In this document: positions 2,821 through 38,884 of the stretch, piece by piece | How the letters are laid out: every line of letters begins with the position of its first letter | How positions within the stretch are numbered: position 1 is the stretch's first letter | NCBI GenBank assembly: GCA_015956445.1 | Contig: WIUZ02000039.1 | Location: 1 to 38,884 of the forward strand | DNA: 38,884 bases | DNA from: Thelephora terrestris | Taxonomy: Eukaryota; Basidiomycota; Agaricomycetes; Thelephorales; Thelephoraceae | Direction: 5' to 3' | The notes under the pieces: generated by a model | Databases searched by the model: none | Told to the model about the DNA's origin: nothing | The model's input: only the letters and a program-made list of their open reading frames with translations | Position numbers and translations under genes: made by a program

Positions 2821-5481
2821 CATCATGCAACCCATTCGAACTTTCGAACCGAACCCCTGGCAAGCGGGAAAGCAAGCAAACTAGGGAACGTTGAACTTAA
2901 TGGGGCAAGGTTCGAACGCGCGCTGTATACATAAGGGTTGAACGTTGAGATCCCATTCAGTCAAGCATTCGGTCTGGGCCTCACCGTGTTGCTCTGGTGA
3001 TCCCGGTATCACTTTGTGAGCGGCGATCACGTACAAAATGGTACCGCCACCGTCGGCGGTGTGTATCGGGTGTTCCGAGTCGCCTGATTGAGTTCAAGGG
3101 TTTGAGCCTCGAGGTGAGTGAAGCCGAACGTGCTTATGCAACGGGCGCGGACAGTAGATGCTGCGCTGTGCGCTCTACCAACACGGCTGTCACCGAGGGT
3201 ATTTGAACTAGAGTCCGCGTGGCGTGCCATGGGATTTCCATTCCTGAAGTGGAGGGCGCGCTTGCTCTCCTTTCATCGGCAGCGCGATATGAAATAATCG
3301 GTGGCGTTCGTAGACGCACGGCCGGCTGGCTGCGATCACCAGCTCTCAATAATCAGTGTAAAAAGGCTGACAGAAGTTAGTCACTCGGATCTGGACTACG
3401 CTGGACTAGCAGAAGAAGCCTACGTGAGCGGGGTCCAGACAAAGTTATAGCGTAGGTTTGAGTCCACCTTTTCCCGACCCGGGTTTGTCCAATACCCGTA
3501 TAACGCTATCCCCGTCTTCGCCGAGCCTAAGGTGGTGGTAGGGCTATCATATCTTTGTTGTAGGGTAGACAATAGTTTCGCCGAGCCGTGCGGGAGGCGG
3601 GGACGATACGGAAACGGTCCCTGACCGTGGATGGGGTTTTCGTAAACGGCCCCTGTGCCGGCGTGAACATTGGCAGGGCATAGGAGCCAGCGGAACGGAG
3701 GAGCAGAATATAAGGAGCAACATTGGCGTGGAAATTGGGGCGGTCAGCAGTTGATCGTCCCTCGCGGGGATGAGGTAGTCGGGATATCCTGTGGGGAAAC
3801 GTCATCACACAACCGCGCGGGTGCTGTATGGTTAAGCTCCACGACGCAACGGCTGGGTCTGTGACGGAATAGACCGCGGTACCTCGCACGTTCCAGCACT
3901 ACCGAGGCCCCGAATGTATACCACAAGGACGTCTGCTGTTATCTCTTAGCGTTTGATGACGGTAAAGGCTGGCGGAACTCCGCTACAAAGTTTGGTGTAA
4001 GCTCCATTTCGCGTTGTCCGGGGGTGCGTCCTCAGCCACGGTTTCTGATCTCTGATGTCCCTGCGCGTCGATCATTCCTGGTAAGCCGCGTGGGATGCGT
4101 AAAGAAGCGTAGGGACCCGCATGGCGAGCGTCAGGAGGCGTCAGGAGTTTTGAAACGACGGAGTTTTGTCCTCGTCCGTAGTCAACCCTAGCAAAGGAAG
4201 CCGTAAGAACGCGGTTTTACCCGTTCCTCCGCCGCAGAGAACTGAGACTGCTCACAGAGTCGGTTGGATTTCGACAAAGTCGCGTCCATGACGGCTCTGA
4301 TGAGCGTTACGTAGCCCACTTTGGGAGACCATCTGTCAAAGCGATCCGAGTCCGATACGGCTCGCTATCGGCCTTTCATTGAAGTTTCCAACGAAACGGG
4401 TGTCCCGTTAGCATATATACATATACATATATTTCCATGGGGTCGGAACCTGACGGTGGTGTCAAATGTCCAAAATTTGGACAGCCTAGTGGCTTCGTCA
4501 TCTTTGCGAGATGCGTAAGAGTGAGCAAGCGTTGACTATGACGCTTCCGATGTGTCCGACCTGGCCGGGGACCCTGCCTTCGGCCTGCGCTCCAATGTGG
4601 AGAGGACGGGCAGAAGTTCCGGGAAGCTGTTCAGGGGCTGGCCGCAGCGGACGAGTATACGCAACTGAAGGGAGATAGGAGTGCAGGTCGTTGTAGCCTT
4701 GAAATCGCCAGCAATACTAGGACATCCCCCTTCAGCCGGATAAAGCTAGGTCGGCACGTCGGTAACATCATTTTATCCCCGGGAAGTTGACAGGAACTGA
4801 TGAACCTCAACGAACCCGCTTACACAGAGGTAAGCGGGCGGGATACCCTTCTTGGTAGGTTCCAGTGGGTGTACCGCTAGAATCAGAAAAACGTTAGTGA
4901 GGGCGCGGCGAATTGTGGGTCGTTTGTTCCAGGGTCCAGTTATCCGATCTGATGTGTCACCACCGCACCAGATATTTAGTCAGGGGCCTGGGTTCCGGAA
5001 TCTGGGACAGTCGCATTAGTTGCGGTGGCTGTCGAGACGAGGCGCAGTTGCGATGTTGGCGCGACGACGCGAGCGTGGCAGGGTGTGGCAGAAAACGATG
5101 AAGGATGACAGCGGTCGCATATGCGCCAGAAGCTCGAGTGTCCAAGATCTCGTTGCCACGATTCGGACCATGAAGCCAAGTTGAGGGGTGGATAGCGCTC
5201 TTGCACCTCTCAGCGCTCTTGCGTTTGCTGTCGATAACGATATCGAGGGGCGGTTTTGATTCTACGGCATGGTACCGATCACCTTCCTTCTGTCTCGTAC
5301 GTTCCATCCGTTGACGGAACAGACTCTCAGATCTCCGTTCTTGCTCCTCTAATAGTCTATGTCAGGACCCCGATAATCGGTTATGAGTATGATCAAAATC
5401 AGGACTTCTGGTCGGACACCTTGGCCGTTCCTTTGGTCCGAGTTGAGCACCGGCATTGGGGTTTGAGCTGGTTTGAGCAAA
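2821..5481. other. No gene recognised; unique-looking intergenic DNA
   Basis: Open frames here are short, contradict each other across strands and match nothing I recognise. Minor structure: a TA-rich microsatellite at 4412-4433 and a 9-bp hairpin at 4815-4838 (CCCGCTTAC paired with GTAAGCGGG). Confidence 0.4.
4412..4433. repeat. TA/CATA-rich microsatellite
   Basis: Imperfect CATATA/TACATA repeat of about 22 bp in otherwise mixed sequence. Confidence 0.6.
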
Positions 5482-6122
5482 TTTGGTCCGGAAAGGTACC
5501 ATAGATGCTTAAAAATGCCGAAATTCCCGATTTTTGCCTATTTTTCCCCCGCCCCCCGAACGTCTGCTGATACGCCTAGTGCAAGTCAACCTGAGGATCC
5601 TCTCCTTGAGGCTACCGCATTCAAAAGGCTCATTCCAACGTCCAATAACTAAGTTACGAGCGGAAAGAACTACCGTTAATTCTTGCCACTGCTGTGAGTG
5701 TGGCATCGGCACTGTTCATCATGCTATGTCAGACAATGTCCAATCTCAGTGTTACCGCCCGTGTGCAGCCCGATCTACGCTGTTTCTATTTTTTGTTCTT
5801 AGGATTTTCTGAACGCACGAGAGGTCTTCTGCTCTTGACTTGCACGCTCGGGAGAATTGCTCCACTGTTTTCTGATGCGATGGCTCATCGATGAGTGCGA
5901 GCCTCGAGGGTCAGCCGAACTTCTTTCTGGGGTCACGCGCCTTTGGCTGGGCAAAACGTGCGAGAGCCGGTCGACAGCCGAGGCAAGGCGGTCCGGATCA
6001 CGCACGCAGTGTCCCTTGAAGGAGCCGATTGGTCGGGATTTGACATACATTTTTTCCAAAAAAATGGTGTTTGGTCCGGAAAAAATCATACCTCCCTGAT
6101 TTTTGGCCCAATTTGGTCCGGA
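5482..6122. repeat. TTTGGTCCGGA short repeat, three direct copies
   Basis: The 11-mer TTTGGTCCGGA occurs at 5482-5492, 6070-6080 and 6112-6122, all in the same orientation. Each sits in locally similar T-rich context (GATTTTTG-type strings nearby). It probably marks remnants of a small dispersed element rather than a regulatory array. No gene is recognised in the interval. Confidence 0.5.
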
Positions 6123-7029
6123 TTTTGCACCGGACCTTCCCTCAATTATCGGGGTCCTTCTATGTCGTGCCCTCCGAGCTCGGAACTCCTTCTGAGAGAC
6201 CCGCGTTTGCCCTCACCCCGCCCTCTCAGTTCTCTCGCTCCCTTTGTTTCAGGCCGATACCAGTGCTGTACGAGGCGTAGCTAATCAGGTTTCGTTCGAG
6301 CGGCAGTGAATGTTCATATTCCCCTTTGTGGGCCCGGGGGGATAGGTGGTAGTTTTGATGACCGTTAGCGAGGAATGCGTGATGCGGCAAAACGGAACCA
6401 AGCGACTGGACTCTGCCTTCGAGACTCTTCATGATATGTATATCGGTCACATAACCTTCGAACGCGATGCACGTCGGTTTTTAACTCCCCCAATTCGACA
6501 GTCTTCGTACAGATGCGATACGGAAATGTAAAAGCGCGGAGAATAGGCTGCACTATACGGTTCTATACTAGACATAGACAGCGCAACTTGTGCCCCGCCC
6601 CCCCCTCACCCTGGTTGTGACCAAACCGCGTCATCTCCAGTTGGCTTTTGTTCCAACCTCCGGCCGTGTTAACATAAACTATCGTAAGCAAACAACCGTG
6701 CGAGCACGAAGTTGCATATGGGGATGTCCTTCGCGCGGTTATATCTAACCTAAAAGTTTATTCAGCGACGAACCCACCCCACGCTCTTCTTTCCCCCTCC
6801 TACCTCCAGGAATTCCCCTCGTACGCTTTCGAATTCGAGTTTCTGCTGAGCATCGCCCCCTGGAACTTCTACCCGTGCCGAGGACGGTTTTGACAGCTCG
6901 AATTGAAGAACAATCCTTTTTGAGCGATCGTCGTCCTGATATATCCCGATATCTGCAAAACCCCACCTCCATCCTCAATTTCCACCACATCCCCACCCCC
7001 CACTCGCACCTTCGCACCCCCTCAACACG
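6123..7029. other. Upstream flank and probable 5' UTR of the F-box-like gene
   Basis: No recognised gene. The last 250 bases are C-rich with CCACC/CACCCC strings, typical of basidiomycete 5' leaders, and lead to the ATG proposed at 7030. No TATA box is evident at a suitable distance. Confidence 0.3.
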
Positions 7030-8958
7030 ATGCAGATTCGAAAAGACAACGATCCTCTCGCCCAGTATGGGACACCATCTCGCCCAATATCACCACCGGC
7101 CACGCTGTCGACTCCACTCAAGAAGCCGACGACCACCGGAAATGAACCCGGGAAATCGACAGCCAAAGCGTAGAGCCGCGAGCGGGGCGCGAATCGCCTC
7201 CCCAGCAGCAACGCTCAGCAGCGTCACCCCTCGCAATTTCCACCAGAACTCATTGATCATATCGTCGATCACCTCCACGACGATAAGGAGTCGCTCATCC
7301 GGTGCTCCTTGGCTTCCAGAGTCTTCTCGCACGCAACGAGCTACCATCTGTTCAGGACAGTTCGCATACCTTCTTTGCAGAGGTGTGTGCGGTTTCAAGA
7401 ACTCGTATCGCCCTCATCGCACCCCCTCTCCTCGACTTCGAACCCACCCCCATCACCATCACCTGCCCCGCACACGACGCACCATCAGATCACCCAAGCC
7501 CACGCACGATCCACACATCTCCACCCTAACCCTGACCTCATCAGCACGCAATCCCACGCGCGTCCCACGTGCATGTCGATCTGCGATGTCTCTGCGACGT
7601 GGGACATTTCAAAGTTTGTTCGGAAAATCGAGTTTCAGTACCCGCCAACATCGATCGTGGAATATGTCTCGGAAGCGGTAAAGCTGGTGAGGATGCTCCC
7701 AAGGATCCGAGAAGTAGCCTTTGTGTGGTGGATAGGGTCAACCGGGGTGGAAGAGATCGCGCGGGCGTTTGCCCCCATCTCCCACAACCCCAGTCATTCA
7801 CTCGACCAGACGCCGTCATCGACATCAACGAGTGCGCTTTCCGAAACGCGGACGGGACCAGCGTCCACCAGCGATCCGCTCAAGGTACATTTGGATATGG
7901 TGGATTTTGAATCTGTCCATATGTTCCTGGATTTCCTCGAATCGTTTGGTGGGAGGCTGAGGGAGCTCAGCCTGTCGAATGTTGGTTTTGGAGGGGATGA
8001 TGGTAAAGGGAGAGGTGACTTTCGGGGTCGTCGTTTGCCCGGAATAGAGAGCGTGTGCCTAGGCTTTGAAGGTGGGTAGTTCGGGTCCTTGGAATCCTCA
8101 TTGCCTCCCCTTTCATTGAAAATTGGAAACCAATCTTCATTCTTGACGCTGATCGATACCAAAACAGCTGTGGTGAAACCGAAAGTACCCGGTCTAGACG
8201 GTCCGACAATGGGAAACACAGATGGCTTGTTCGGGGCGCCTGATGTGTGCGACATATTGGAAAGCATTGCGCCTAATGTCAGCGAGTTGCAGCTGTTTAG
8301 GGATGTTGAAGAGGCTAAGGACGTATACATGTATGGTAAGTCATTTAGCGTTCTGTTTTCATTTCCCCCCTTATTTCGGCGTCGATGTACGTCACCTAAT
8401 TGAGAGGAAGTGTTTGCTTCTTCATACTTTCACCTTTTCACGCTTCGCCACTACCCTTGACCCTTTGACGGGATCACTCTTCGCCCCCCCTGGTCCCTTG
8501 GACATTGAGTGGGACGAGTTCTACTTTACTCAATGACCCATTTCGATCTCGACCGACTCTGCAATCTCACCACTAATCGTCTTTTTCGCTCTGCTTTGCT
8601 CTCCCAGTGTCACCAGGTTCTAGAACAGCCAGAACACTTCGACTTCCGATGTTCCGGAAACTAAAGTCGGTGACTATGTGTGTTCCGGGGTCACGTTGGT
8701 CCGATCTGATTTACGAGATCGCTGCGTGGTTCGCGAGGGACCGGTCGCACGGGGAGATTGCTGATCCCACTTGCCAAGATGGACGTGCTTCTCCTCCTTC
8801 GTCTGTCACCCCCTTCCCTGCCATCAAGCAACCCAGCAACGCAAGCGGACCGGTGGAAAGACCGGAAGCGGACCAAGGTCAGATTCGTCTACCCCGTTGG
8901 GAAAAGCGATGTCGACTGGAGGAAGCTTGAAAGTGCTGTATTGGGAGAGGGACCTTGA
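7030..8958 (+). CDS. F-box-like domain protein (hypothetical), multi-exon
   Basis: Substrate-adaptor type F-box proteins recruit targets to SCF ubiquitin ligases. Here FPPELIDHIVDHLHDD (about 7234-7281) plus SLIRCSLASRVF is the classic agaricomycete F-box-like start. The rest lacks a named domain but has Leu-rich stretches (RLRELSLSNVGF). Introns supported by phase: 8072-8167 (GTGGGT...AACAG) and 8336-8607 (GTAAGT...CCCAG; long, might hide an exon). The ATG at 7030 shares the frame, but a TAG at 7171-7173 interrupts it, so a first intron (7065-7175 would keep phase) or a later start is needed. The end is uncertain: after about 8740 the likely frame changes, one frame stopping at 8958 and another staying open to 9223. 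No ligase partner is visible nearby. Confidence 0.6.
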
Positions 8959-19768: not shown

Positions 19769-22330
19769 TCAGTCTCGACGCAGTCGAGAGGATCCGAAGT
19801 TGAGTTTCGTCCGAACGTTGTCCATGAACCTGCGGAATGGAAGACGTTCGAGCAGCTCGAATCCACGTCGAGCCGTGGGGGATATGGAGGCATGGATCCC
19901 GCTGACGACCTCCCTCGCGACACTAATCGAACGCTCGACCTTCGGATGATCTAAACTTATCAGGCGGATGTGTTGATCTCCACCTTCGCCACTTGACGCG
20001 TCTGGGTCAGTTCGGGCGCTTTTCCCTTTGAATAAATTGACTGTGCTATAGGTCAGCTCTGAGGAAGGGGGTTCGAAGAGTTGTTACTCGCCATAGGAGG
20101 TAAATAGCGTAGAGCGGGTGCTGACGGTTCGGGCCTGTGAAACTGCTACCCTCGGGCCAGGGGGGGCGGACGATGACGTCGACGCTGCGAAGGTCAGACG
20201 CAAACGCACATCTCGAGTGCTTGGTCGCTGCTTCCGGTCTTGACTCCAACATTTCTCCACTAGGTTCCAAATCCCGTTTCCAAACCCAATGGCTTCCGCA
20301 TTCTCTGGTTTCTTGGGTCGCTCTCCTTCCGTGACTGCGAAAATCAATTCCTGGACCCGCTTGCCTTCAAGACTAAACGGTCTGACTCCCGTCACAACTT
20401 CGTAAATGGCCATCCCGAAGGCGAAGATGTCCCCTTCCCTGGATGCTTCTGAGCCGGAGAGACCAAACATTGACGGTCGAATGAGCTCCGGTGCCATATA
20501 CGGCGGCGTCCCCCCTCCGAGGTTCATCCCACAGGTGGAAAGGGGAAAAGTGTTTGTCGGAGCAGGAATGGAAAACCCGAAGTCAGAAAGACAAGCTTGA
20601 GGGGGCGTTGCGTTTGTGATCAGGATGTTGGGCTATCATCCCAAAGGAGGGTGGAAGTCAACGTCTGTACAGCTAGAGAGATGTGATAAGTGGGGTGGGT
20701 GATAGGGACTCACCCCTTTGATGTCCCCGTGGAAGATGTTGAGGCGGTGGAGGTAGTACAGGCCTTCAGCGACGTCTGCAAGCTAATATGAGAGAGAAAT
20801 CAGTTGTGGCCCAGAGGGGAGTAAATCCATTAGTCAATCACCAGACGGAGGCGGTTCGCCGAGTTGCGCTGGATGAACTCGAAGATGTTGCCGTTCCCCA
20901 TGAGCTCGGAAACCATAAAGCACCTCCCAGTGGAACCATCAATATCGACTGCAATGAGGCCGAGAACATTGGGATGAGAGATGCTCTTCCAAAGAACGGC
21001 TTCCTTGCAGAAATCCTACGACCAGCGTGCACTCGTGAGTGAGAGTGATAGAAATGCGGCCCGGTATATCCCACCTTTTGGAGCTTGACCACGTTACTAT
21101 TTTGCGCCATGCGCAAAACCTTTACGGCAACCACATGACCGCCCAAGCTCCCCTTCCGCACATCCGAAAACCCTCCACTAGCGAAGGCCACAGGATCGAT
21201 CTGGAAGTCTAGGTTCCGATCAATCTTGTAACAATTTGGTACCTGGCCGGCTTTATATGCGAGCGACTGGAACACGCGAAGCACATGATTCGAGAGGTTT
21301 TCGAGGTTTCGAACTCGTTCAAGAATCTACGGTAAACGCGAGTCAGCATCTACGAGGTCGACGCGGTTTCATGGTTGCCCCGGACAAGCAAAGGGATCAA
21401 AGCATACCTTTGCAAGAATGTCGAGGACAACGATGGCGTCCTCATCCTCGAGAGAGGTCGTGGCTTTCCTGTCCACCTTGTCGTCGAGGAAAGAGTTGAG
21501 AAGTGGGGGGTAATCTTGGGATTCGGGGTCGAGCTGGTCTAAATGTCTCCATTTGGAGACAATCCTAAGTGCCTCCGCGCGACGGTCTCGTCGTTTGTAT
21601 GTACCCTGAAGGGGGACTTCGCTTGGCGTTGGGGTATCGTGACCCTTGGCAAGGAATTGGCGAAAGAATCCATCGAATGGCATTGCTTGTGTGTCCAGGG
21701 GATGAAGAGAACGAGATAATTGCGTGCACTGTTCGTAAGCGTTTCTATGGTTCGGATGGAGAGGTGTCAATAGAGGATCCCGCGAGTCCCCGCCTGCAGA
21801 GGAGAGATGAAATGGTCGTAAGCAAGAGGGAAGCCATGAGGTGGTTCTGAGATATATCTAAGAACGCACAAGTTGTCACCTCAAACGTTTCTGTCGTAAG
21901 AGATCTACGACCACCGAGAGACCGCTAGCCTGGTCCGGGACCTTTCAGACTGCCCGAAGCCTCAGTGCCGTGGGAGGGTGATGGCTCTGTGACGAGCGAT
22001 GATCATGATAGCTGGGGACAAGCAAGGCCACCCCGTGCTTAAGAGTATTCGAATTTGGGCCGCAGATCAGATCAAGACCCTGGGTCATTGGTGATTGTCC
22101 TGAGGAGGATCGGATTCCTCCGAGACCCCGCCCAACGTACTCATACGTAATCGGGATGGCCGCTTTGGCCATTCTTCGGCAGCCATAGCGAGAAGTTGAA
22201 TTTCCCGATCTCTCTTTGTGAATAGAACGGGACAAGGAATGGTAGCATATCCATGTGACAATCTCATAACGAACCCGGAAGAGACTTGCAGATCTTCTGC
22301 ATACATCCATGTAGTCAACTGTGTAAGTGA
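19560..22330. repeat. Tandem duplication unit 1 (contains K1)
   Basis: The unit, including non-coding flank (for example 22190-22320), matches 22430-25110 at a spacing of about 2.8 kb. Shared flank strings include GGGACAAGGAATGGT and a CTGCA(T)-rich end. Boundaries are approximate. Confidence 0.65.
19769..21683 (-). CDS. TKL-type protein kinase K1, intact
   Basis: Predicted Ser/Thr (tyrosine-kinase-like) kinase of about 530 residues. Exons 21683-21408, 21326-21075, 21015-20842, 20782-20714, 20632-20088 and 20045-19769; the first four introns are phase 0. Order: N-terminal helical module (1-92), glycine loop ASGGFSDVRKG, catalytic Lys in VVAVK (161), alpha-C Glu (181, CKE), catalytic loop HGDIKGPN (Asp 254), DFG (Asp 274), MAPEL, C-lobe CWSQDRKQRPS, then a tail ending in a conserved block (AREVVSGIHASISP). 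All catalytic residues are present. The start Met at 21683 aligns with that of K2. The last intron (42 nt, donor GTAACA) is inferred from conservation with K2; without it the protein ends at 20084. The gene is first of five tandem paralogues. Substrate and pathway unknown. Confidence 0.8.
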
Positions 22331-22429
22331 TCGCTAAATCGAAACTGCTCACCAGTCTGGGGTGGACTGGTTTGTGTATCGATGCCGTATGGCCTGGGTC
22401 AGCGGCGTAGCGCGCTCGAAGTGCTCTAC

Positions 22430-25110
22430 CTATCGTATGGCCACGGGACATTCTTGCCCAGATACTCGGCAAACCCCACGGAAACTGTTGTACATCGATT
22501 AAGTACAATGGGAAGTAGAGAGCAGTGAAGGAAACAGCTGGAAATATCATATACAAACGTCGTCAAAGCATCAAGTGACAAGGAGCGTGGTCGGAGGAGT
22601 CCGGTCCCGGCGTCGTCGAGGGTATCTGAATTTGAGTTTCGCCCTAACGCCGACCACGAACCTGCGGATTCGGAAACCTTGGAGCATCCCGAACCCACGT
22701 CGAACCGCGGGGGGCACGGAGGAATGGATCCCGCCGACCACCTCTCTCGCAAAGATCATTGAACGCCCGATTAACTGTTGATCCATATTTGGGCGTGGAT
22801 ATTGGTTTCCACCTTCAATACTTGATGCGTGCGGGTCAATTTGTGCGCCCTTGTCTTTCGCGCCGTAGAATAAGTTCGCTATGCTGCAGGTCAGTTGGGG
22901 AGAGGGAAGTTTGGTGAACACCTACTCACCAAAGCCAAAGGAGTCGAATACTGGAGGACGAACTTTGACGCTTTGAGCCAGTGGATCTGGTATCCTCGGG
23001 CCAGGGGGGGCGGGCACTGACTTCGATGCCGCGAAGGTCAGTCGCACACGAACATCCCGAGCGCTTGGCCGCTGCCTCCGGTCTTGACTCCAGCATTCGT
23101 CCACCAGTTTCCACATCCCATTCTCAAACCCAATGGCTTCCGCATTCTTTGGTTTTTCGGGACGCTTTCCTTCCGTGACCGCAAAAAGCATTTCCGGGTG
23201 CCTCTTGCCCCTAAACGGCTTGACTCCCGTCACGACCTCGTACATGGTCATCCCGAAGGCGAAAATATCCCCTTCTTTGGATAGTTTTGAGTCGCGAAGG
23301 CCAAACTCTTGCGGATACAAGATCTCTGGTGCCGTATACGGTGACGTCCCCCCTCCGAGGTTCATCCCACACATGGAAACGGGAAAACTGTTCGTCGGAG
23401 AGGTAACGGAAAACCCGAAGTCAGAAAGACAAGCCTGAGGGGGGGTTGCGTTTGTGATCAGGATGTTGGGCTATCATCCCAAACGAGGATGGAAGTTAAA
23501 GTCTGTGCACCAAGCGAGATGCGATGGTAGGCAATACTCACCCCTTTGATGTCCCCGTGGGAGATATTGAGGCGGTGGAGGTAGTGTATGCCTTCTGCGA
23601 CGCCTTCAAGCTAAGATGTGAGAAAAAATCAGTTGCGGCCCAGCGGAGAGAAGATCCAGAAACCAATCACAAGCCTGAGGCGATTCACCGAGTTGCGTTG
23701 AATGAACTCGAAGATGTTGCCGTTCACCATGAACTCGGATATCATAAAGCACCTCCCGGTGGAGTCGGTATCGACTGCAATGAGGCCAAGGATATTGGGA
23801 TGGAAGTGAGAGATACTCTTCCAAAGGACCGCTTCCTTACAGAAATCCTATGACCAGCGCGCGCTCATGAGTGCAAAGAAGGAATATACCGGCCCGAAAT
23901 CCGACCTTTTGGAGTTCGGTTGCGTCATTACTTCGCGCTATGCGCAAAATCTTGACGGCAACCAATTGGCCGCCCAGGTCCCCCCTTCGCACATCAGAAA
24001 ATCCCCCGCTAGCGAACGCTTCAGGATCCATATCGAAGCTTAGGCTCCGATCAATCTTGTAACGATTTGGTATGCGGCCGGCTTTATATGCGAGGTATTG
24101 CAACACGAGAAGCACACGATTCGAAAGTTTCTCGAGATTTCGAACTCGCTCAAGAGCCTGCGGCAAAAGCGGGTTAGCATCGACGTGCTTTCGTAGTTAC
24201 CCCGGATAAGCAGTAACATCAACGCGCACCTTTGCAAGGATGTCAAGGACAACGATAGCGTCCTCACCTTCGAGAGATGTTGTGGCTTTCCTGTCCGTCT
24301 CGTCGTCGAGCAAAAGATTGAGATGTAGGGCGTAATCTTGGAGTTCGGGGTCGAGCTGGTCCAAATGTCTCCATCTGGAGACGATTCTGAACGCCTCCGC
24401 ACGACGGTCTCGTTGTCCGTATGCACCTCGGAGGGAGATATCATCTGATCTTGGGGTATTGTGATTGTCGTTATCCTTGCCAAAAAGTCGGCGGAGTAGA
24501 TCGAGTGACATTGCGGGTATATTCAAGGGAGTGCGGAGAATGAGATATGCGGAGTCGGTACGCTGTAAGTGAGCGCTCCTATGGTCCGAATGAAATAGGA
24601 TCAATAGAAGATTCCACGAGTCCCTGCCCGCAGAGGAGAGATGGTCACGAGCAAGAGAGAGATTGGAAGAAGTCACGAGGTGACTCTGAGATATGTATAT
24701 CTAAGAGTGCACAGGTTTTCGCCTCGAGCATAATTGCGTCGGAAGAGATTACAAAGACGACTGTTGTAGGCCCGGTTTCATGATGGCCGATGATCGTGGA
24801 CGTACTCAAAGCCACCGTATTTTAATCTGAGCTATAGACCAAGGCACGGGCCCGGGTCACGGATGATTGCGCGGATGGCTGATGGGAAGGTTTAAGTTTC
24901 TCCGATACCCGCGCAACGTAAGAGTAATCCGGATAGCCATTTTGGCTGTCGTTCGGAAGCCATCGCAAGGACTTGAGTTTCCCGATCTAAGTATGAATGA
25001 AACGGGACAAGGAATGGTGGCATATCGGTGTGATTCCATGGAAAACTCGGAAAATACCTGCAGATCTACTGCATATATTGTCAAATAAGCGATCGATAAA
25101 TCAAAGTTAA
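22430..25110. repeat. Tandem duplication unit 2 (contains K2)
   Basis: Second copy of the ~2.8 kb unit. Coding exons, intron positions and part of the upstream non-coding DNA (24975-25085, similar to 22190-22320) are shared, showing that the duplication covered a whole gene with its promoter. Confidence 0.65.
22571..24511 (-). CDS. TKL-type protein kinase K2, intact
   Basis: Close paralogue of K1, about 545 residues. Exons 24511-24230, 24157-23906, 23847-23671, 23610-23542, 23470-22926 and 22883-22571. Start Met (MSLDLLRRLFG) aligns with K1. The N-terminal module contains SRWRHLDQLDPELQDY, followed by ASGGFSDVRRG, the catalytic Lys in LVAVK, CKE, HGDIKGPN, DFG, APEI and CWSQDRRQRPS. Exon 3 is one codon longer than in the other members (SHFHPN versus SHPN), possibly a neutral indel. 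The last intron (42 nt, donor GTAGGT) joins phase 2 to a basic tail (AREVVGGIHSSV, then KLKFRYPRRRRD). Lies 0.9 kb upstream (in coordinate) of K1, same strand. All catalytic residues are kept, so it is probably active. Confidence 0.8.
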
Positions 25111-25250
25111 CTAAGGCTGCAGTGTGGCGAGGTCGTGATCGTTATGACGGAAGCGGGACGTGCACCGCACGTTTGAAACGTACCAGATAAGCTTAAGCAT
25201 GGGCATGAAGTAAAGATACGGGGACATATAAAATATGGGTATAAAAATGG
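25111..25250. other. Short spacer between K2 and K3
   Basis: AT-richer spacer with no ORF of note. Contains the K3 3' flank on the minus strand. Confidence 0.3.
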
Positions 25251-27150
25251 TCAAGCCCGAGCAGGCGGGGAAGTAGGTGCGACGAGACGAGGTACCGGCC
25301 CTCGACCCTTGATACGTGCGGTGATGCGGTCGAACAGCGAAGGCGCCGCCCGAATGAAATGTGCACTAGGCACAGAGACTGCAGGGTGGAGGCTGCCGCC
25401 ACCAGCCACAACGCCTGCAACAAACTTGAATTGCTGAACTTTGCTCATACTTGTTTGAGAAGGGGAGAGGAACAGTTGGGCTGTCGATGTTGTCCTGGCA
25501 GGTGAGGATTGGTCTGGCGCGCGCAAACTAAGAATATGCTTACTAAATTGATCGGAGCGACTCTCCGGTCCGGAAGCCGTCGAAGGCTCCACCTCACGAA
25601 CCACTTTCGCAGATCCAGGGGGGACGACAGTCGAGGTCCTTGCCACGCGCCGAAAGTGTTTGCGAATATCTTCCGCGGTAGGTCGTTCATCACGGCGTTG
25701 GTGCCAACACCGTTGGACGAATTCCCAAGTGCCTCCACCAAACCCAATATCCTCCGCGTTTTCCGGTTTACTCGGCCTTTGGTCCTGTATGATGCATATT
25801 ATTGATTCCTGAATCCGACGCCCCTCTCCACCGAAGGGGGGGAACCCTGTGAGCACCTCGTAGACCACCGCTCCAAAAGCGTAGATGTCCGCTTGCTTGG
25901 ATAACCGGGCATCGTGTAGGCCAAAGTTTCCGGGGATGAGTAGTTCGGGAGCCATGTGAGACCAGGTCCCTTTATTTTCATCGGCACTGGCGGACATGGC
26001 AAAAGACATGGTAGGGGCGACGGTCGAAAAACCAAAGTCGGAGATACACGCCTGAGGAGTCGCCCCGTTCTTGATTATGATATTAGCCTAAGCGGTTATC
26101 ACATTAGAAGGTTGGCTTCTGATAAGCAAGGCAGCGAACCACGGAACTTACTCCTTTCAAGTCCCCATGGATAATTTCACGTTGGTGAAGATACCGCAAA
26201 CCTCTCGTAACATCATCCAACTTTGAAACAATCAACTCAAAGAAAGACCAGAAATATAAAATGCCAAACTTACGAGACGAATCCTGTTCGCCTCCTTCGT
26301 GCGAATATACACCATGATGTTTCCGTTGACCATAAACTCAGAAATCAGAGAAAATATTCCGTTCTCAGGATCGACATCGACTGCAGCAAGCTCCAGGACA
26401 TTAGGATGGGAAAGGTGCATCCAGACCACAGATTCCTTGCAAAAATCCTAAAATCAGGCGTGCAAAAATTGTTAGAACCAATACGGTGCCCTCGTGACGG
26501 TACCCACCTTCCGAATTTTGGATATGTCCTTATCTTGTGAAACGCGGATGGTTTTCACAGCCACTGCCCTGTTGCCCAATTTTCCCTTCCGAACGTCCGC
26601 GAACCCACCGCAGGCGAATGGCATCTCTTCAACTTGATAACCGGCATCTTTGTTGAGCAAATAACTTCCTGGTAGTTGACCGGTTTTCCCGGCAAGTTTA
26701 CGAAGCATGGAGAAGGAGTGAAGGGCAAGTCCCCTCGGAAGCGTGCCGCCCCGGAGTCTCAGGGCCTGGTGATATACGGAAGCACAGATGGATATGAGTA
26801 GAGTAATAGAGGTAGAGTCAATTAGAGGAGTTCACCTCGCCGATGATATTAATCACAACTCTTGCATCGTAGTCTGTGAACCCAAGGGCAATATTCCTGT
26901 TGGATTCAACATCGACAAGCGTCCTCAGGAGCTCGACGTAGCCGTGAGATTTCGGGTCTAGCGTCCCAAGCTGCTGCCACTGTGAGAGGATCGTTTGCCG
27001 ATCTGGAAAGTCGGGTTGTACATCGAGGCCACTGGATGAGGGGAGGGGACGGATGTTATCTTGGTTCGGAACTGGAAGTACGGGATCGGGGCGAGTCGGC
27101 CGCACGAATCGGGGAAGGCGGAATCGGATAGGCCACATCGTTAATCGCAA
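25251..27150 (-). CDS. TKL-type protein kinase K3, intact
   Basis: About 550 residues. Exons 27150-26836, 26765-26508, 26447-26274, 26220-26152 and 26087-25251, all phase 0. N-terminal module with SQWQQLGTLDPKSHGY, then glycine loop ACGGFADVRKG, catalytic Lys in AVAVK (176), alpha-C Glu (196), HGDLKGAN (Asp 269), DFG (Asp 289), HMAPEL, DIYAFGAVVYEVLTG, and a Ser/Pro-rich tail of about 120 residues with a weakly K1/K2-like block (KFVAGVVAGGGSLHPAVS). More divergent than K1/K2 but with the same intron map. A TATATAA box lies 37 nt upstream of the first ATG, so the second Met (27138) may be the real start. All catalytic residues present; substrate unknown. Confidence 0.8.
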
Positions 27151-27186
27151 GGTCGTGAAGAGCGGATTAGAAAGTCGATAATGTGG

Positions 27187-27193
27187 TTATATA
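27187..27193 (-). promoter_or_regulatory. TATA box of kinase K3
   Basis: TATATAA on the minus strand, 37 nt before the first candidate ATG at 27150 and 49 nt before the second Met at 27138. Position fits a core promoter for K3. No matching box was noted at the same place for K1, K2 or K5. Confidence 0.5.
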
Positions 27194-28040
27194 ACGCTAG
27201 GGGGTGGAGAGGAGGGTTCGACCCAACATGGCCAGTGAAGGGGGAAGCGAGCGAAACTGTAACTTAAGTATAAGAAACCAATGGAATGAGGCAGGGGCAC
27301 GTAGTCGGCGGTGCCACTCCACAATTGGAAATTGAACATTAGAGGCTGTGAACCCGGGGCTGGGGTTCCAAAGGAGTTTAAATGCGTCGAAACGAGGCAG
27401 TCGCATGGCGAACGTGTTTATCGAATACCACAACTGTACTGCCGAATGACGCATGCCACGTTGGCAAAGGGAATATGGAGAGGACTATGTCATCGCAGAG
27501 TAAAGACGCGGGCGAGCGCTGCCGGGTCAAGTGGAACAGACATGAGCAAAGGTCGTGGTGATGGAGTAAAGTGTAACATGTAACCGAAAAAGAGCCGGAT
27601 CTCAAACCATCCTGATCGACTCTGGGGAAGAAGCGATGTGACTCGAGGGGAAGATCAATGCTTGCGGGCAGTGGCTACGAGTAATACGAGCTAGGTAGAG
27701 AGGAAAAATTGGAGGGCTATCCGGTAGCACAACATACTAGTAACAAAGGTGCGTTGCAAGTCTCGGACATGCAAAGAAAGGGAGAATGAACGGTATGTCT
27801 GATGCAAGTATATATTCAATTCAATTGCCACCTTGCGGAGACGGCTCCAGACGAGGGGCAGACCGGGGTGATATGAGATGATGATACATCCGAAGCAGTG
27901 GGTTAGGCTCCCGTTTAGCCTGGAGGGTTGGAACGGGGACGGCCCGATTGTTGACCAGTACACGTGTGGCGTAGGCCGTCTGTTGGAACCTGCCTGTGTT
28001 ACTCCTCGACGGTGGGCCAAATAGCCTGGCTGGAGCGCTG
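27194..28040. other. Spacer between K3 promoter and K4
   Basis: No independent gene seen. A minus-strand frame at 27821-28153 overlaps the K4 tail out of frame and is probably spurious or decayed K4 C-terminal sequence. Confidence 0.35.
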
Positions 28041-29580
28041 TCAGAACAGAGGCAACCGTGTGAGGTTGTGATACTGACTGAAATTTCTGGAACTGTTCCC
28101 CACACTGGGGTATATTGGTTCACGGACCGATACCGTAGGACCTGGATCAACAACCGTTGAAGTCTTCGCAGCCCGCTCGAAATGCTCCACCGCCTGTCTA
28201 GCCGCGGGGCGTTGTCCCGGATTTTCGTCCCAGCATCTTTCGGCGAATTCCCAGGTTCCCTGACAAAACCCGGCAGCCCCTGGATCTTCCGGGGCGGGCG
28301 GCCTCGAGCCCTGAAGAGTAAGCACAGGAAGTTCCTCCAGCCTATGGTCTCCGAACGGACGGGTCCCCGTGATTACCTCATAAACGACTATCCCAAAGGC
28401 ATACATGTCCGCCTCTTTGGAAGCCTGAACCCCAGACAATAACTCGGGCGCCATGTAGCCAAAGTGCCGACTGCACCACCCTGAGTGGGGCGGAAAGACA
28501 TACTCGGTGCGATAGCGCTGAGTCCAAAATCTGCGATGCACGCTTGTGGAGGTGTTTCGTTATTAATTAGAATGTTAGGCTACAATAACGGGTCAGTAGT
28601 CAACGTTAAGAAGATTTGAAAGGTAAACGTACTCCTTTGAGATCTCCATGGATAACTCCCGATTTATGGAGATATTCGAGGCCCCTTGCAATATCCACCA
28701 CCTGTGGGTTTGTTAGCAATTTGGTTCCGGAAGGGCAGAAGGGACCGGAACTCGCACCAGGCGGATCCTATTTGCCTTATTTCTCTTAGTGTAGATGAGG
28801 ATATTTCCGTTCTTCATCATCTCAGAAACCATTGAAAACTCTCTAGCGTCAGGTTTGATTATGACCGCAGTAAGTTGATGGATGTTAGGATGAGACATGT
28901 TCATCCAAACCACGCATTCCTTGCAGAAGGCCTAAATACGGTGTTTCACTTTGATCAATGGTCAAGAGTGGGATAACAAGTCATATTGCACACCTCGTGA
29001 ATTAAAATGATTCTCCCCTCAATCTCATCCTGGAGCGATGTGCGGATTGTTTTAATAGCAACATCCTTCCCCTTCAATCTGCCTTTCCTGACGTCTGCAA
29101 ATCCGCCGTTCGCAAAGATTGTCTTCTCGACCTTGCACCGTGTGAATATCCCAACCAGGTAGCTTTTCGGAACCTGGCGTGACGCTCCTGCGAGTCTTCG
29201 CATAAGATTTAAGGCGCGTTTCTGGGTCTCATCTGGAAGTTGACCACCCTTCAGCAACTTCGAGACAGATGGGGTACTGTGAGTTATCGTTGTGGGCATG
29301 AAGGGCTAAGATCGGATTACCTTGTCGATGGCATTTATGATAGTGGCTGCATCCTTGCCCCTGAATTTCATAGCTATTTCCCTATTCTCCTTGACAAGAT
29401 TGGCTACTTGATGGAGATCAATGCGTTTGAGGCTCCGAGAAAGTAGACCTTTCCACTGTTGGAGGATATCTTCTGCAGCGATGATGAGTTATTGATCATA
29501 GCTGATGGAGGATGGAAACGAGGAGTACCCGGATCGAGAACATGAGCGGGCCGTGGGCCGCGGTTGTTGTCGGTGGCCAT
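28041..29580 (-). pseudogene. TKL-type protein kinase K4 with two one-base deletions
   Basis: Fourth tandem paralogue. Exons 29580-29321, 29257-28994, 28931-28758, 28701-28633 and 28579-28041. It keeps the glycine loop ANGGFADVRKG, VAIK, CKE, HGDLKGPN, ADFG and MAPEL. Two exons have lengths that cannot keep phase: exon 1 is 260 nt (needs 261) with the frame change before EDILQQWKG, and exon 5 is 539 nt (needs 540), with DFG in one frame and GYMAPEL in the next, breaking at 28461-28463 within a T-run. The C-lobe and a short tail (VREPIYPSVGNSSRNFSQ, resembling the start of the K3 tail) follow. As written, the gene cannot encode a full kinase. It is a young pseudogene or an assembly error; catalytic residues show no other decay. 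Confidence 0.7.
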
Positions 29581-30843
29581 TGGGGACGAGATCGGGGGAG
29601 TCGCGAGGTCGTGAGATGGGCTGTGCCCTTATTAGCAAACAGAGATAACGATATTGTACTTTTTTTACTGCCAGAGTATGGGGAAGAGGTGAGGACGCAT
29701 GCACGATGGACCGGGGGTATTTAAGAGTGGTTCCGTGCATGGGGCATGCACGCAAAGCCCCGACGGCGTGTCTTAGTTCTGCGGATTTCGAAGGGCTGAG
29801 CGCGTGGGGTGCCCGGTGTCCTACTTATCGGTCTATCGCCCCTCATCCGGGCGAGAACCTTTGTATAGACGGCGCCTTTAACCAAGAGAGATCAGCGTTG
29901 CAACATAGTGTTTTTCTATTCGATAGAGTAAGATTCCTATGCTCCACGGATGAGCTTATCGAAGGCGGAGTGAACCCACCGCTTTCATGAAATATGCCAT
30001 CGACATAAGAGTCACTCAATCGCGCTTTGTGTATCTGCGCCAATTGAGGTGGGAACAACCCGAATCAGATGGTCCTCTGGGACCGCTGTGGGTTAATTGT
30101 AAACCTGGAGTGAGCGCCATCACTGCCACCTGAGTTGCGTATACCCAAGAAACAATTTCGCGCTGCGGCTGAGAGGAAATTAAAGCTTAGCCTTGGAGCT
30201 CCGGACCGTGCCGAAGAACGTTTCCTTTTCGAGTCCGTGCCGAACGTGCCGAACGTCCACATCGGAACTGACAAGGGAACGACCTGATTTCTCCTGATTT
30301 CCGTTCTCCTGCTTCCGTCACAGCAGCCTCACGGTTCTGTTGCGTTGCCCTGTCCCCCCTCCCCAAGAAGGGTGAAGGAAATAGTGCCCAAGCGGCTCCT
30401 TCTGCATCTCACCAACATAACCCTCGGCCAAGTCCAACGATACGCTCCTCCGCCACGCCTTTGGAAGGCCTGATAGTGACATCGAGTTGCACGAAACTAG
30501 CAAGGAGCCAACTAATTGATGACAAGTCGAAACGAAGGTTCTCCATGGATCTTTCCTTGATCTCATTCATCCTAATGCCCCCCATGACCTGATCGCATGG
30601 GCAACAAGATAGGCACCCGTTTCGCGTTTTTGATATGAAAATCTCGCTCAATACTCTGTTAGTGTTCCGGGGGCTTAGGATCAAAGTGGGTACGTCATTA
30701 AATAAAGTACATATTGTGTTCATACAAACAATCAAGGAAAAGATTTGCTACTGCTACATTTACCTAAATATTAGATCGACCTACGAGGCACACCGCCCTC
30801 TACTGCACGCATATAAACTGATAGAAGCCAGCAGAAGCCCATG
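29581..30843. other. Spacer between K4 and K5
   Basis: Contains only short, mutually overlapping frames and no recognised domains. GCATGCAC-type strings at 29697-29752 form a short inverted pair. It must hold the K4 promoter and the K5 3' flank. Confidence 0.35.
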
Positions 30844-32916
30844 TCAATGACCCCGAAAATTCGAAGCCAAAAGATCCATTGCGTGCTTTGGATTGAGTCT
30901 GTCTAAAAGTCCGTCGAAACCGAAGCGATCGTGTTTTGGTGGCTTCATTGCAATGAACATCGGCATAGGGATGGTGGAATTTACCACGTTCCCGGGTTTA
31001 ACCTGAAGGTTCTTGGCTAGGGCTGATAACTTGGCGGACGAAGGCTTTGGTGACGGCGTTGACAGGTTTGGGGATGAGAGTCGGCGGAGCAACCTGTTGA
31101 ACTGCGAAGGTACATGCAATCCCGGCGGCGGTTTGACTAAGGTTTCAGGAAGTTAACGATGAGACACAATGGAAAAGAGCCAAAAACTACCATCTGGGCT
31201 CTGGGAGACTCCGCTTCCCCTACTTGTAACTGGTGTGATGGTGCTCGGGGCCAGGGTGTTGATCATGCTAGTTGCGCCGCTTACAGTGCTGAGCGGTGAA
31301 TCGGGGGTATCTCCGTCCGTTGAGACGGTTGGAATGGCCAGTAAATTCGACCTTTGTTCGGTGGTCATTGCGCCAATGTATGGATTAATGTTGCCTTCCG
31401 CGCCGATGTGAGAGGTCGCTGCATGCCAGAAACACAAAGAACTCACTGGATGAATCTGACTCTGAGGCGTCCACACTGAGCACTATCTCCGGAGTTGGGC
31501 CAAAAACTGTCGAGGACGCGGCAACACGAGTTAGGTGTGCGAGCACCTGCTCGATCTTCGGTCTTCTTGTTGGTTGCTGCACCCAGCATTCTTCCACTAA
31601 TTCCCAAGTCCTACCTCCAAACCCAATTTGTTCTGCATCGTCGGGTTTGGTCGGTCGTTCCCCGCTCACTACTCGATACGTGACCTCCGTAGTAACCCAC
31701 CCCTTCTCAGAAAATGGCAGGGCACCGGTGAGCACTTCCAGTATCACCATACCCAAAGCGTAGATATCGGCAGGCTTCGTCGGTCGGGCGCTCGAACTAC
31801 CGATCGTCGATGGAGCTATCAGCTCTGGGGCCATGTAAAGAAACGTCCCTCCAGCATTATCCGTGGCCGTCACCCCCGAAGTGCTAGGGGCGAGGGTCGA
31901 AATTCCAAAGTCGGCCAGACAAGCCCGGGGAGGCGTTTCGTTGGTGATCAAGATGTTGTTCTGGAAATACTGTGAAGATGCAGAATACCATCGGTCTCGA
32001 TGGACATACCCCTTTTAAATCTCCGTGGACGATATCATGTTCGTGGAGGTAACATAAACCTGCAGCGATATCCTCCAACTGGGCAGAAAGTAGCGTTAAC
32101 ACTATTTTTAGAGTTGAAAGATGTGTCGTACCAGGCGGTGTCTATTTGCTGAATTTTGGCGGATATACTCCCTGATATTCCCATTCGCCATCAGTTCCGA
32201 AATCATCGAATAGTGGCCGGTTTGAGAATCGATATCAATCCCGATGAGCGGTAAGAGGTTGGGGTGGGAAATCTTCATCCAAATAATACACTCTTGCAGA
32301 AGAGCTAGGTATTGTTCGTTAATACCTGCTGGTACCGGATAACTGGCTGGATGAAACAAACCTTTTGATGTTTATCACCATTGGTCTTCTGGTCAATTCT
32401 GAGGGTCCTGATGGCCACCGCCTTATTATCTAGCCTCCCCCTCCTAACTTCCGCAAAGGTGCCAGCTGCAATGATGGTCTCCTCCCTTCTCAGGGAGCGA
32501 CGATTTACTTGGTAAAGAGGAGGAACCTGTCCTGAGTTATACGCAAGCTTCCGCATAGTGTTGAGGGTACCACGCTCATGCTCGCCCAGGACTTTTCCAG
32601 CCCCAAAGACCTGGAGAGAGGATGCAACATTAGTTACTGCCCCCGCAGAAAACGCCGGGCTTACCTCGTCCATGATACTAAGCGTGTCCCTGGCCTCTGC
32701 ACCGCGAAGCTCGATCGTCTGGGATTGGTTGCCTCCGGTTATAAGTGAAGAAAGTAAGCGGAGAAACCCAGGGGATTGTCGATCCATTGAAGCGAGATCT
32801 CGCCAGAGAAAGACAATCGGACTTATATCAGACCAAGCTTCTCGAGGATCGTCGGAGGCGACGGGAGACGTCATTTCGGGACCACAAGAAGGAGGGGCGA
32901 GATCGTGTTGAGACAT
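30844..32916 (-). pseudogene. TKL-type kinase K5, predicted catalytically dead; pseudokinase or pseudogene
   Basis: About 582 residues if repaired. Exons 32916-32665, 32610-32362, 32304-32132, 32078-32010, 31960-31477, 31418-31191 and 31136-30844. Two lesions hit catalysis: the catalytic VAIK Lys is Arg (AVAIR, AGG codon at 32409-32407), and exon 3 is 173 nt instead of the 174 found in K1, K3 and K4, with the missing base falling at the alpha-C Glu codon (about 32293). HGDLKGNN, ADFG and MAPEL remain. Intron 1 (32664-32611, 54 nt) is a multiple of three without stops, so its retention would be in frame. The tail is unique: a Ser/Thr-rich exon, then a basic exon (HVPSQFNRLLRRLSS). An alternative AG acceptor at 32292-32291 would keep phase but drop the alpha-C Glu. 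Confidence 0.7.
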
Positions 32917-37972: not shown

Positions 37973-38884
37973 CAACCACCTGGCACACCAACAGCTCAAG
38001 ACCACAAACAAGAACTACGCAGACCTCATAGCAAAGTCCAAGAAGGACCACTGGGAAACTGGCTCACGAACGCATCTGAGAGAGACGTGTGGACGGCGAA
38101 CAAATACGCTACTGACCCCCCAACTGACGGAGGACGTACGCGAATGCCAACACTCAAATTCACAGATCACACAGGTGAAATTAGACACATGAGCTCAAAC
38201 CAAGAAAAGAGCACCGCGCTTGCTAACTCATTCTTCCCTCCACCCCCCACAACCAATCATTCCGCCCACACAATACCCGAGACCTGCTGACATATGCCAA
38301 TCTCACCCAGAACAGATCCGCAAAGCCACCAAGAAGCTGGAAGCCTTCAAAGCACCAGGCCCAGATGGAATCCCAAACGTCGTCCTCAAGAAGACCTTTT
38401 ATACACTGATCAAACACGTCTACTATGTCTTCAGAGCGATCTTTGAACTCGATGTCTACCCCGAAGAGTGGAAGGAGTCAATCACAGTAGTCCTAAGGAA
38501 ACCAGGTAAACCGTCATACGAAGAGCCAAAAGCGTACCGACCCATCGCACTGCTCAACACGCTCGGAAAACTTTTCTCATCTATTGTTGCGATGACCTCA
38601 GCCACTTCTGCGAATCAAGGCAGGCCCTCCCCGCCAACCAATTTGGCGGCAGACCGGGCAAAACCACGTCCGACTCGATGCTCTTACTAACCCACAGAAT
38701 CAAGGAGGCATGGAGACACAAAAAGGTAGCCTCGATCCTCTTCCTGGACGTACAGGGTGCATTCCTGAACGTCGTCAAGGAAGTCCTCATTCACAACATG
38801 AGAAAACGAGCGGTCCCAGAACGCTACGTCTTACTGACTGAACGAATGCTGACCGGCCGAAAAACGAACTCTCGTTCGACGACT
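37973..38884 (+). mobile_element. LINE 3' fragment: reverse transcriptase, runs off the window
   Basis: Copies LINE RNA into DNA at nicked target sites. Motifs: LIAKSKKDHW (about 38029-38058), KLEAFKAPGPDGIPN (about 38336-38380, the RT block before palm motif A), EEWKESITVVLRKPGKP, YRPIALLNTLGKLFSS, ANQFGGRPGKTTSDSM and SILFLDVQGAF (motif A with the first catalytic Asp, about 38732-38764). The YxDD motif would lie beyond the right edge. Frame changes occur near 38061 (GGGAAACTGG, one A short of the expected reading), near 38290 and near 38591. Together with the fragment at 35271-35733 this is one interrupted, defective LINE. Confidence 0.85.

Follow-up and report, generated by a model that had tools for sequence, protein, structure and literature searches.

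A TKL-type kinase array in Thelephora terrestris: apparent decay at a probably twice-assembled locus, and a retained beta3-arginine subfamily

The window analysed here, a 38,884 nt stretch comprising the whole of contig C33 of Thelephora terrestris (genome assembly searched: 40.6 Mb, 60 contigs), carries five TKL-type kinase genes, K1 to K5, all on the minus strand between 19.8 and 32.9 kb. A sequence-only reading of this DNA had described a tandem array with one intron map and graded decay, in which K1–K3 were intact, K4 carried two frameshifts, and K5 had lost its catalytic Lys and probably its alpha-C Glu and was drifting towards a pseudokinase role. The array, its single strand and its common intron map are borne out by Pfam matches and spliced models. 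The last open frame of each gene scores over the cut-off for both Pkinase (PF00069) and PK_Tyr_Ser-Thr (PF07714). Full models, searched for K1, K3 and K5, match these two families with E values of 3e-39 to 1e-32; their weaker matches, below cut-off, are to other kinase-fold families, and no Pfam domain besides the kinase was found in the three. Exons were defined by three-frame reading by eye and by explicit spliced profile alignment allowing introns and frameshifts, and the two agree over the kinase domains except at the second intron of K5, where the shifted site chosen by eye was later dropped. One phase-0 intron separates beta3 from alpha-C, a second precedes the catalytic-loop exon and a third follows directly on the KG of that exon. 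The kinase domain is accordingly split into an N-lobe part of 165–180 nt, an alpha-C exon of 174 nt (177 nt in K2, 173 nt in window K5), a 69-nt exon ending HGD(L/I)KG and a long exon for the C-lobe, with introns of 49–81 nt in the five window models. These gene structures, like the expansion of TKL kinases, would fit a basidiomycete.

All five array kinases have HGD in place of HRD. The beta3 Lys, alpha-C Glu, catalytic-loop Asp and DFG Asp are all kept in K1–K4, in agreement with the complete catalytic motifs that had been reported for K4, and judged by these residues K1–K4 are probably active kinases, of the ‘non-RD’ type with HGD. The tyrosine-kinase motif DL(R/A)A(A/R)N was not seen by eye.

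Contig C33 as a whole duplicates C6:430431-468544, on another contig of the same assembly. The correspondence was first met at K4, the region of which matches C6:457521-459320 at 100 % (rounded) identity, with C6 one base shorter. Two blocks align, C33:6159-38884 with C6:435799-468544 (99.3 % identity) and C33:1-5363 with C6:430431-435806 (97.5 %); the match has a gap at window 5364-6158. Within 19769-32916, 42 window bases are without counterpart in C6 and 12 points have a base or bases missing from the window, giving 54 insertion/deletion (indel) positions. Substitutions in the same interval number three, all adjacent, and a gain together with a loss could also account for them. Exons are not avoided, with 29 indels in 7,462 b against 25 in 5,686 b of non-exonic sequence. 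Of the 126 one-base indels in the 32.8-kb block overall, 112 fall in runs of two or more bases, a count made without a chance control.

Frame breaks fall at different places in the two copies and none is common to both. In the window the frames of K1, K2 and K3 are unbroken, as had been claimed, while in C6 the models place 2 breaks in the kinase domain of K1, 5 in that of K2 and 4 in that of K3. For comparison, 23 kinase domains were modelled; these are a part of the family, mostly its best-scoring members, and residue tallies drawn from them are not genome-wide. Left out of the set were kinases L001, L002, L004, L005, L006 and L008 (HRD, outside the family), L003 (no model above threshold) and three partial models scoring 272, 208 and 151. 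Another 17 domains of the family, none of them noticed to recur on a second contig, short of a domain-by-domain check, are all without a modelled frameshift. In a Fisher comparison modelled breaks are present in 5/5 twice-assembled domains (5/6 if C58:1782k, which was left out, is counted) against 0/17 of the others, and the P value is not leaned on. C58:1782k belongs to a second redundant pair, C39:26920-30396 and C58:1780156-1783632, which over 3,477 b show no mismatch and 2 gaps; its modelled frameshift is by eye a GC-AG intron and hence no true break.

Alleles under selection should not differ by indels of this kind, whereas uncorrected reads do. Since indels abound, substitutions are near nil and exons carry indels at the density of non-exonic sequence, the apparent decay of the array is read as an artefact of assembly, the indels marking two redundantly assembled and imperfectly corrected copies of one locus; the graded decay of the earlier reading is not retained. 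A plausible cause would be that reads divided between two redundant contigs hinder correction and leave homopolymer-length errors. Fragmentation of genes by long-read errors is described in published work (PMC12007338).

Table 1. Window positions of the array kinases and of single sites within them (dN/dS, ratio of non-synonymous to synonymous substitution rates)
Feature	Position	Strand	Exons	Remarks
K1, TKL-type kinase	19769..21683	-	21683-21408, 21326-21075, 21015-20842, 20782-20714, 20632-20084	
K1 possible sixth exon, basic tail	down to 19769	-		weak support; K1/K2 dN/dS 0.63
K2, recent tandem partner of K1	22571..24511	-	24511-24230, 24157-23906, 23847-23671, 23610-23542, 23470-22922	possible sixth exon
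K3, TKL-type kinase	25251..27138	-	27138-26836, 26765-26508, 26447-26274, 26220-26152, 26087-25251	
K4, TKL-type kinase	28041..29580	-	29580-29529 (tentative), 29472-29321, 29257-28994, 28931-28758, 28701-28633, 28579-28041	complete catalytic residues
K4 one-base frame break	28455..28466	-		homopolymer run before APE, without counterpart in C6
K4 candidate intron	29473..29528	-		56 nt, phase 1; one of three options
K5, TKL-type kinase	31385..32916	-	32916-32665, 32610-32362, 32304-32132, 32078-32010, 31960-31385	beta3 Lys to Arg
K5 alpha-C exon run-length difference	32290..32297	-		one base, without counterpart in C6
K5 beta3 motif VAIR	32407..32418	-		Arg codon AGG at 32409-32407; identical in both copies

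Five close relatives of the array genes are located on C6: C (485k, minus strand), B (487k, plus), D (488k, plus), A (492k, minus) and E (683k, plus). In the 23-domain tree K1–K5 and A–E form one clade (support 100/98), within which K1 pairs with K2 (100/100; synonymous divergence, dS, 0.39), K4 groups with C and D (100/99), and K5 pairs with E (99/98), these two joining A and B (100/99). An exclusive K1–K5 clade is rejected by the approximately unbiased (AU) test (p 3.24e-48, 13-row set). The expected clustering of the five therefore holds for all ten genes together and not for the array on its own, which is a mix of older subfamilies and one younger tandem pair, the wider cluster lying on both strands. 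What the window carries is a portion of this wider cluster on C6, made up of TKL kinases of basidiomycete type. The upstream flanks of K1 and K2 (22115-22306 and 24897-25078, read from the C6 copies) are about 74 % alike, which suggests that the K1/K2 duplication unit took in the 5′ flank.

One of the two frameshifts reported in K4 is present in the window, between DFG and APE (~28460), and is absent from C6, where the frame reads GTFGYMAPE. An intron of 23 nt at this break was considered and judged by eye too short. The other, a change of frame near the N terminus (~29.5 kb), can be bridged by an intron, which would measure 56 nt in the window copy and 57 nt in that of C6. There are three frame-joining GT-AG options at this site in the window, and at least one such option occurs in 21 % of randomised stretches; the sequence is suggestive, and only suggestive, of an intron here, most naturally the 56-nt phase-1 one. 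Between K4 and C, 148 of 275 codons differ at the third position, 82 at the first and 52 at the second, and dN/dS of K4 with C and with D is 0.13 and 0.09, with dS near saturation. On these figures K4 looks constrained.

In the window, one modelled break interrupts K5, at a run some 10 nt into the alpha-C exon that differs in length by one base from C6. The C6 copy has none; its alpha-C exon reads LFCKECIIW with the Glu kept, so the suspected loss of this residue falls away. The C6 exons of 249, 174 and 69 nt equal those of A and B, the alpha-C exons of which read alike. A shifted phase-1 intron (53 nt, with exons 2 and 3 together 426 nt as in K1) would open the window frame too, and was dropped because the C6 copy, A and B splice at the phase-0 sites, which give exons of 249 and 174 nt. 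K5 retains the alpha-C Glu (C6 copy), the catalytic-loop Asp and Asn and DFG, and lacks only the beta3 Lys. All five genes are probably intact.

The loss of the catalytic Lys from K5 is confirmed, the codon being AGG (Arg) in both assembled copies, C33 and C6. It is also AGG in E and A, and AAG (Lys) in B; Lys codons (AAG or AAA) stand at this position in K1–K4, C, D and three more genes of C6. Within the 23-domain sample beta3 Arg is limited to this one subfamily. The beta3 Lys, alpha-C Glu, catalytic Asp and DFG Asp are all kept by 17 of the 23 domains, one of which, C12:738k, has HAD and no clear APE. The remaining six comprise the three Arg forms (K5, E and A), in which the alpha-C Glu, the catalytic-loop Asp and Asn and DFG are kept, two with HGN (C6:415k and C6:699k) and one with alpha-C Glu replaced by Gly (C23:1240k); pseudokinase-like forms thus recur in the family, the last three through a residue other than the beta3 Lys. 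By the sequence definition of a pseudokinase, namely that at least one of the beta3 Lys, catalytic Asp and DFG Asp is missing, K5 alone among K1–K5 qualifies.

Selection on the subfamily is evident from dN/dS, which for the six pairs of K5, E, A and B is 0.223, 0.161, 0.187, 0.204, 0.196 and 0.147. Bootstrap 95 % intervals exclude 1 for K5–E (0.22, 0.15–0.32), K5–A (0.19, 0.12–0.28), E–A (0.20, 0.13–0.28) and A–B (0.16, 0.11–0.23). For K5–E the ratio is low in both the N-lobe (0.219) and the C-lobe (0.224), where a value near 0.6 would be expected if one partner were unconstrained; dS from K5 is about 0.5 to E and about 1.1 to A. K5 is under purifying selection. Because the Arg form is shared with E and A and dN/dS is low, it is regarded as old and maintained, not decaying. 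The marks of a pseudogene are not seen, in that no break is common to both copies and dN/dS in the K5 subfamily is well below 1, although K4 is uninterrupted in neither copy. What stands of the proposed birth and death with pseudokinase drift is the expansion by duplication and a pseudokinase-like K5; decay and recent drift do not.

A clade of K5, E and A, needed for a single origin of the Arg form, is not rejected (AU p 0.086 for protein, 0.245 for DNA). The free protein tree, however, pairs A and B (92/88), the position of these two is unresolved in the DNA tree, and either tree requires two changes. Arg either arose once with a reversion to Lys in B, or arose twice.

KSR1 and KSR2 are described as pseudokinases of the RAF branch; KSR2, of a scaffold family and the nearest precedent found for K5, has Arg692 at the place of the beta3 Lys, near the DFG Asp in an ATP-bound structure, and is reported to phosphorylate MEK1 (PMC4718504). 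K5 resembles KSR2 as there described in combining beta3 Arg with a retained catalytic Asp/Asn and DFG Asp. It differs in having HGD, and the likeness is one of the beta3 Arg only, with no sign of common descent, of a RAF/MEK role or of the other domains of KSR. Given the low dN/dS, the Arg form is taken to be kept for a function. By analogy, the K5 domain would bind ATP with weak or no phosphotransfer, and would act allosterically on a partner or as a scaffold, the Lys-bearing neighbours being possible targets. A KSR2-like role of this kind, as an ATP-binding regulatory kinase domain, is the likeliest function and is put forward tentatively, with somewhat less than even confidence. The fuller proposal, that selected beta3-Arg members regulate Lys members of the same cluster in a KSR-like arrangement of independent fungal origin, possibly with Arg/Lys switching (B versus A), is rather doubtful.

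K5 and its Arg relatives may alternatively be fully active, with Arg itself or another residue, as in WNK, doing the work of the Lys. The remaining catalytic residues are all kept, the close relatives A (Arg) and B (Lys) may have toggled, and some formal pseudokinases, KSR2 among them, are reported active (PMC4718504). No new glycine-loop Lys is seen by eye at the WNK position. Replacement of the beta3 Lys by Arg is, moreover, the standard way to make a kinase dead, and full activity is accounted unlikely. That K5 is instead drifting to loss, with Arg as a first step of pseudogenisation, draws on the missing beta3 Lys and on the members that have lost other catalytic residues (the two HGN forms and the alpha-C Gly form), but E and A carry the same Arg, dN/dS is low in both lobes and the frame is intact in the C6 copy, all of which makes this very improbable.

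Most improbable is that C33 and C6 are true alleles or a segmental duplicate with real frameshifts, K4 and K5 decaying on one and K1–K3 (and K4 again) on the other, for although the first 10 kb of the contig differs by substitutions and indels as haplotypes do, the array shows indels in great excess over substitutions and with no avoidance of exons, the indels of the whole aligned block are biased to homopolymers, and K1–K3, open in the window, are repeatedly broken in C6. In contrast, it is very likely that the frame breaks are an artefact of a twice-assembled locus and that beta3 Arg is old and selected, taken as a joint claim.

Several points weigh against the overall reading. The two aligned blocks hold 92 substitutions, 81 of them in the first 10 kb of C33, and C33 may consequently be in part a second haplotype, in which case it may join a second-haplotype stretch to a collapsed stretch. 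The comparison of copies is one of assembled contigs. Each copy of K4 has a single modelled break, that of C6 lying further on than that of the window; none is shared, and the gene is open end to end in neither. An intron at its N-terminal site is not present in paralogues C and D. The K4 pairs are close to saturation, with proportions of synonymous differences (pS) of 0.71 and 0.74, and their bootstrap is unusable, saturated draws having been set to zero. Leaving out the beta3 column lowers the support for K5 with E from 99/98 to 85/86 in the protein tree of 13 rows, the DNA tree giving 98/99, and the KSR-like role is an unproven analogy.

The abundance of TKL-type kinases looks like a further case of the known fungal expansions. 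A 185-residue stretch of K5 gave at least 173 matches at exon level, a figure in which both contig copies are counted and not all matches need be TKL. An expansion of TKL kinases is known from Laccaria bicolor (Kosti et al. 2010, PMC2838846), likewise with many such genes in a single fungal genome; in the parts of that account consulted neither beta3-Arg members nor an array structure is described. FslK is described as a fungi-specific kinase lineage near tyrosine kinases and expanded in Agaricomycetes, mostly without added domains, as here (PMC3937382). It has Pro at the Leu/Met place of the tyrosine-kinase GxR(L/M), comparable, by description only, with GERP of K1 and K5. RIPK2, Roco4 and B-raf are among the best PDB sequence relatives of K5 (E about 1e-21 to 1e-19, among the best 60 of 2,426 rows), and the same rows hold Eph and further tyrosine kinases with scores almost as good, so that the relationship is distant and implies no orthology; the top row, an EGFR chain, sums two domains. 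No title or abstract opening found in the literature search addresses beta3-Arg fungal TKLs, which is not proof of absence.

A twice-assembled locus can mimic graded gene decay and is a trap for genome scans. The part meriting follow-up, as against the already known TKL expansion, is the beta3-Arg subfamily, since a retained subfamily of this kind beside a close Lys-bearing relative offers a natural comparison for the need of that Lys.

Elsewhere in the window, a phage search at the right end found nothing, and the other open reading frames (ORFs) gave Pfam matches below cut-off only, the best being a weak F-box-like match (E 0.003) in the ORF at 7174-8079 on the plus strand. At the right end of the contig, a further plus-strand ORF (38193-38690) looks by eye like a reverse transcriptase from a non-long-terminal-repeat (non-LTR) retroelement; Pfam gave no match for it (E limit 5, HMMER filters on).

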